From: Erysipelotrichaceae bacterium
GTDB taxonomy: Bacteria; Bacillota_I; Bacilli_A; Erysipelotrichales; Erysipelotrichaceae
NCBI GenBank assembly: GCA_009773735.1
Contig: WSYG01000036.1
Coordinates: 1 to 32,140, forward strand
Direction: 5' to 3'
DNA: 32,140 bases
Position 1 is the first letter of the stretch, and each line of letters starts with the position of its first letter. Shown here piece after piece: positions 2,455-2,880 of the stretch. The notes beneath the pieces were generated by a model. It was not told the DNA's origin. It made no database searches and worked only from the letters and a program-made list of their open reading frames with translations. The position numbers and the translations under genes are program-made.

Positions 2455-2880
2455 ATGAATAGACAGCAAAATGAACAATTAGTTAATGCCCTCTACTGCC
2501 GCACAGCTCACGCGAGCTATGACGGGATTGAACTGCAAAAGCAAAGACTTATGCGGTATGCAAAAGAACATGGGATGTATCCGTTAGAGTTTTACATCGA
2601 CGATGGGTTTAGCGGCACAAACTTTAGCCGTCCTTCCTTTCGGAAAATGTGTGAAGCAATCGAAAGCGGCAAAATCGCTGCCGTAATTGCATCGGATATT
2701 TCCCGCATCGGCAGAAACAGCGTTGATGTCCTGCACTTCATTCAGGAAGTTCTACCGGCCAAAGGCGTTGTTTTCTACACGGTTAGCGATGATATGGTGA
2801 ACAACCTTCCCATGAGCAAAGACTTTGTAGAATTGATCACTGCTTGTCGAAAGTCCGTTGCTGCGGGAGGTGCAAGATGA
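2455..2880 (+). CDS. Resolvase-domain protein lacking the catalytic serine
   Basis: The 141-residue product aligns along its whole length with the N-terminal catalytic domain of the next gene ([25 protein letters not shown]). It stops where the recombinase and zinc-ribbon domains would begin. In the active-site motif YCRTAH, alanine 18 stands where the large recombinase has its nucleophile (YCRLSR, Ser19). It should therefore not cut DNA. GGAGGT precedes the ATG. It overlaps the next gene by 4 nt (ATGA), so the two are translationally coupled. Possible roles are a directionality factor, a dominant-negative subunit or a regulator; none is shown. Confidence 0.8.

Follow-up and report, generated by a model that had tools for sequence, protein, structure and literature searches.

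A small protein encoded directly upstream of a large serine recombinase (LSR) is a recombinase catalytic domain in which alanine takes the place of the nucleophilic serine. The protein, P0001 (141 residues; positions 2455–2880, forward strand), lies in a 32,140-nucleotide stretch of an Erysipelotrichaceae genome (the window), and its stop codon overlaps the start of the gene for the full-length LSR, P0002. Standalone domains lacking the serine also accompany LSRs in unrelated hosts. We regard it as an evenly balanced proposition that P0001 is an LSR-derived dead catalytic domain which selection has retained as a partner of the LSR, with which it would mix and which it would restrain.

Results

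A resolvase domain lacking the nucleophilic serine

The P0001 reading frame is intact, with an ATG start preceded by GGAGG at 2444–2448. A domain search assigned residues 12–131 to the Resolvase family (PF00239, E 2.2e-20) and returned no match to Recombinase (PF07508), the zinc ribbon (PF13408) or DUF4368 in the 141 residues. P0001 does not have the Recombinase and zinc-ribbon DNA-binding domains of an LSR. In the AlphaFold model (pLDDT 81), it adopts the full resolvase α/β fold and has a short C-terminal helix of 17 residues, modelled with lower confidence. The best PDB match of the model is the catalytic domain of the TP901-1 integrase (E 5e-9), and the catalytic domains of TnpX and Bxb1 are matched as well. 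Against the TnpX catalytic domain (2mhc), P0001 gave E 4e-17. Because the 141-residue frame yields a full resolvase fold in AlphaFold, we do not consider it a chance reading frame. By fold and sequence P0001 belongs to the serine recombinase superfamily, and it lacks the nucleophilic serine.

At the nucleophile position of the YxRxS motif, P0001 has alanine (YCRTAH) where P0002 has serine (YCRLSR), as the original prediction had read it. Its second observation, that the DNA-binding part is missing, also holds, as P0001 consists of PF00239 only and its neighbour carries all four domains. The rest of the active site (R, Q, S/D, R, R) is present in P0001 as R16, Q28, S83, R84 and R87. The broader statement that the remaining motifs are preserved is correct for these five pocket residues but not beyond them. 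Of the 21 columns that are at least 95% conserved among LSRs, a statistic built on LSRs selected for having the serine, P0001 keeps 14 and has lost the serine and six others.

Junction with the recombinase gene and the surrounding module

P0002 (2877–4523, forward strand; 548 residues) contains Resolvase, Recombinase, zinc-ribbon and DUF4368 domains and the serine, and is by these features a full-length LSR of the TnpX/TndX type. Among solved structures, TnpX is its nearest relative (catalytic domain 2mhc, E 2.5e-46), and it matches an annotated TndX at 40% over 12–532. The two genes are joined by an ATGA stop/start overlap that can be read at 2877–2880 of the forward strand, in which the TGA stop of P0001 (2878–2880) overlaps the ATG of P0002 (2877–2879). 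Near its 3′ end, the P0001 gene contains a Shine-Dalgarno-like GGGAGG at about 2862–2868. The overlap and this internal site make translational coupling of the two genes likely, in agreement with the earlier proposal, and the recombinase to which P0001 would be coupled retains all its domains and its serine. That coupling would hold the two proteins at a fixed dose ratio, as was also proposed, goes further than the sequence does.

The upstream genes of the module lie on the same strand. A conserved leader and start, GGCTGTCGGAAATGGAGG...ATGAATAGACAG (2433–2466), precedes P0001; upstream of it are the gene for a TnpW family protein (2192–2374; PF14202, E 1.6e-10), an Rfam pemK RNA motif (1933–2029) and the gene for a sigma-70 region 4-like regulator (1220–1663; PF08281, E 5.8e-7), the usual neighbour in such integration modules.

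Several further features of the window were noted. The motif CTGTCGG just 5′ of the Shine-Dalgarno sequence (2425–2466 and related starts) is invariant across the aligned TnpW–LSR starts, which exceeds the need of a ribosome site. The pemK motif also lies upstream of tnpW–LSR modules at four other loci (L079, 4549–4648; L131, 4522–4602; L141; and L132), and is suggested to regulate integration genes. The stretch 1734–2056, before tnpW and overlapping the pemK motif, matches a Cohnella herbarum plasmid at 75% DNA identity, in a region that bears no annotation, and may be a longer structured RNA. A perfect 17-bp inverted repeat with a 3-base loop (1176–1212), whose right arm holds the GGAGG of the sigma-like gene at 1220, is a possible translation-blocking hairpin. 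At 192–331 there is a c-di-GMP-I riboswitch with a terminator-like hairpin; the next gene (371–694) is oppositely oriented, and the target gene of the riboswitch seems to have been displaced. The G+C content is about 43–48% in the integration cassette (1150–4560) versus 37–38% in the flanks, which suggests a recently acquired short module. A 9-base repeat, TGTAAAGAA, occurs near 1139 and again near 4543 and is a possible marker of the cassette ends. The flanks are not syntenic enough in the genus for an empty-site comparison. The first about 100 bases of the window (1–102) are found again in the same genome where four further contigs end (C3, C57, C66 and C80), so the contig stops in a repeat.

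Dead small proteins beside other recombinases

A search with P0002 yielded 35 loci. TnpW lies directly before the LSR in 23 of these, and a small gene stands between the two in one, L142, from Oscillibacter sp. MSJ-31. There the gene order of the window is repeated: TnpW, a dead small protein, and the LSR. The small protein, P0009 (136 residues), is 34% identical to P0001 and has aspartate at the nucleophile position (YCRVD), and a TAATG overlap joins its stop to the LSR start. The L142 LSR and P0002 share a 17-residue stretch; the coding pattern for an 11-residue sequence was found in no other fetched locus.

A second type is represented by P0005, the WP_005934733 family (Vescimonas pMM35_01, IMG/VR contigs L113–L117), which occurs at L082 and at the near-identical loci L113–L117. 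Like P0001, these proteins of about 131 residues are resolvase-only, carry alanine in place of serine, keep the pocket residues and overlap an LSR gene, here through the P0005 start and the stop of the third and last of three tandem LSR genes. They differ from P0001 in lying downstream rather than upstream of the LSR, in the type of that LSR, in sequence (26% identity) and in the loss of the R45 equivalent, and they are annotated merely as recombinase family proteins. Downstream of the three tandem LSR genes and the dead small protein in L082 (522–7404), L113, L115 and L116 stand the truncated remainders of different LSR genes, all of which start at the codons of the conserved D(M/L)SR(F/L)GR motif; the three-LSR cassette seems to insert into the integrase genes of other elements at their catalytic motif. 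A fourth and less certain case, P0011 of phage contig L118, has histidine at the position (YVRGH) and keeps the five pocket residues as read by eye. It follows an LSR from which it is separated by one small reading frame, and is thus not directly coupled.

Unrelated hosts thus provide two instances of a standalone domain that lacks the serine and is coupled to an LSR, L142 and the P0005 family. The original prediction held that P0001 would be a case of simple loss if most homologues retained serine. Serine is indeed present in the LSRs, but the other coupled standalone domains are non-serine too (aspartate in L142, alanine in five near-identical P0005 copies), which argues against simple loss. 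What recurs is the absence of serine more than alanine itself: alanine is found in P0001 and the P0005 family, aspartate in the nearest equivalent and histidine in the phage case.

P0001-type proteins are rare. No close relative of P0001 turned up in the contigs of about 85,000 species genomes (genome_contigs), in the viral contigs scanned or in about 1000 genomes sampled from the class and phylum. The short-frame hits examined among these 1000 genomes were LSRs broken by frameshifts or contig ends and bearing the serine. Searches with P0009 and with profiles revealed no further standalone copy in viral, plasmid and phage sequences and in 394 and 195 genomes. In 48 genomes of the family, the short PF00239 frames examined were broken serine-bearing recombinases, plus P0008 (L124, 6602–6928), a degenerate, domain-only, resolvase-like frame of 108 residues that keeps the serine, lacks the last active-site arginine and lies near two sigma-like-looking reading frames.

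Serine retention and shared residue losses

We counted, without selecting for the serine, the distinct reading frames in the fetched loci that cover the nucleophile position. Serine is present in 163, including 133 of 133 with at least 380 residues; 13 more of that length do not cover the position. Seven only lack it, namely P0001, P0009 and five distinct, near-identical P0005-family sequences, and each of the seven is a domain-only protein that stands alone and is coupled to an LSR. The shorter serine-bearing frames include LSRs broken by a frameshift or a contig end. Decaying fragments thus keep the serine and the coupled standalone domains do not.

The residues essential in Bxb1 (R8, Q22, D81, R82 and R85; PMC12884075) correspond by alignment to R17, Q34, S89, R90 and R93 of P0002, and all five pocket residues are kept in P0001, P0009 and P0005. 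The three proteins have lost the same six LSR invariants (S19, S28, S30, K86, G99 and D121). This overlap has p 0.0003 if columns are exchangeable; it would also follow if P0001 and P0009 shared an ancestor.

Origin from a recombinase

In elements lacking the small gene, the leader found before P0001 precedes the LSR itself, and P0009 shares it too. The P0001 and P0009 genes therefore sit in the LSR's own start slot, the LSR now starting by overlap, and both TnpW-linked copies, placed in an LSR translation-start leader, derive from an LSR. In trees, P0001 and P0009 join (SH-aLRT 85–91) outside the clade of the neighbouring LSRs, on long branches. A recent duplication of P0002 is disfavoured as the source of P0001 by the 40% identity and the trees, but sistership of the two is formally not rejected (p-AU 0.16). 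Most simply, an LSR would have been duplicated long ago and its upstream copy truncated and inactivated.

Discussion

Serine recombinases work as tetramers of catalytic domains. An inhibitory subunit is our best mechanistic guess for P0001. P0001 would be made first on the shared mRNA, its translation feeding that of the LSR, and would most likely associate with the catalytic domains of the LSR as mixed dimers or tetramers. With one nucleophile and one set of DNA-binding domains missing, such a complex could not complete double-strand exchange. The outcome would be a brake that caps recombination and leaves the element stably integrated. We favour a coupled brake because the domain folds, cannot cut, has no DNA-binding part and is encoded on the same message, so unproductive mixed complexes are expected. 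Counting against it, the species-genome scan found the small gene in just the one of 23 TnpW–LSR loci, and related LSRs presumably work without it.

P0001 might instead be an inert remnant of an older LSR in the start slot, of which only the translation matters, by delivering ribosomes to the LSR start. This we consider unlikely. P0001 does begin with the conserved LSR leader and so descends from an LSR N-terminus, the arrangement is rare, and LSR-duplicate loci and broken LSRs are common. However, real broken LSR fragments retain the serine that the coupled ones lack, and the arrangement, the coupling and a non-serine residue persist in L142 despite the divergence of the small proteins. In addition, when neutral decay to 46% identity was simulated with substitutions only, the frame remained open in about 5% of runs, and the pocket is complete in three proteins. 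More doubtful still is an activating or structural subunit, a dead domain that the LSR would require to form its synapse efficiently or in the correct order. Retention of the pocket residues other than serine would be expected if the domain docks at the scissile phosphate or synapse, and dead-paralog activators are described for other enzymes (PMC3663545, PMC5201418). Sister LSR genes of the same clade nevertheless have no such partner gene, and P0001, without DNA-binding domains, could not be recruited by DNA.

The original prediction had also offered P0001 as a directionality factor, the weaker half of its interpretation. A recombination directionality factor (RDF) would switch the LSR from integration to excision, and P0001 is small, non-catalytic and encoded with the integrase. 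RDFs share no sequence relationship with each other (PMC3783163), which counts in favour of the idea. Against it, the proposed targets of known RDFs are the zinc domain or the coiled coil, and these factors bear no resemblance to the catalytic domain; a partner constantly coupled to its integrase is also a poor fit to a switch. The closest LSRs studied so far, TnpX and TndX, have been described as bidirectional, excising and integrating without an RDF (PMC5311408; titles in PMC3783163). We hold an RDF to be improbable. Catalysis by P0001 through another nucleophile is barely credible: T17, H19 and S21 lie nearby and a serine directly follows the aspartate in the L142 protein, but serine occupies the exact position in every covering LSR frame of at least 380 residues, and P0001 has no DNA-binding domain.

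P0002 is the same kind of enzyme as TnpX (Tn4451/Tn4453) and TndX (Tn5397), with a TnpW-family neighbour as a further common feature, and P0001 represents a divergent catalytic domain from their superfamily. Both TnpX and TndX reportedly work on their own; the literature found describes no dead catalytic-domain partner for either. RDFs of serine integrases (Bxb1 gp47, phiC31 gp3 and SPbeta YotN) are also small, element-encoded LSR partners, but they are not resolvase domains, whereas P0001 is one. The triplet serine integrases of streptococcal ICEs (PMC4701971) likewise place several serine recombinase genes in one module, but these are described with Resolvase and Recombinase domains and the conserved serine, with no domain-only dead member among them. 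Engineered integrases such as phiC31 S12A (PDB 9tep/9teq) carry the same serine-to-alanine substitution, made by experimenters; in P0001 it is natural and resides on a separate protein without DNA-binding domains. The component parts are known and the arrangement appears undescribed: the open literature, most subscription journals being outside its coverage, yielded no catalytically dead serine-recombinase partner.

It is conceivable, if somewhat less probable than a brake at this locus, that elements have repeatedly made a dead subunit from the catalytic domain of their own integrase, cotranslated with it so that the ratio of live to dead subunits sets the activity of the mixed recombinase; the literature found describes no such principle of regulation for serine integrases. 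LSRs mobilize resistance elements and rank among the foremost tools of genome engineering. If the proposal is correct, a coupled natural dead subunit would explain how transposon LSRs without an RDF, such as TnpX, are held in check, and it would offer a protein handle with which to tune integrases.
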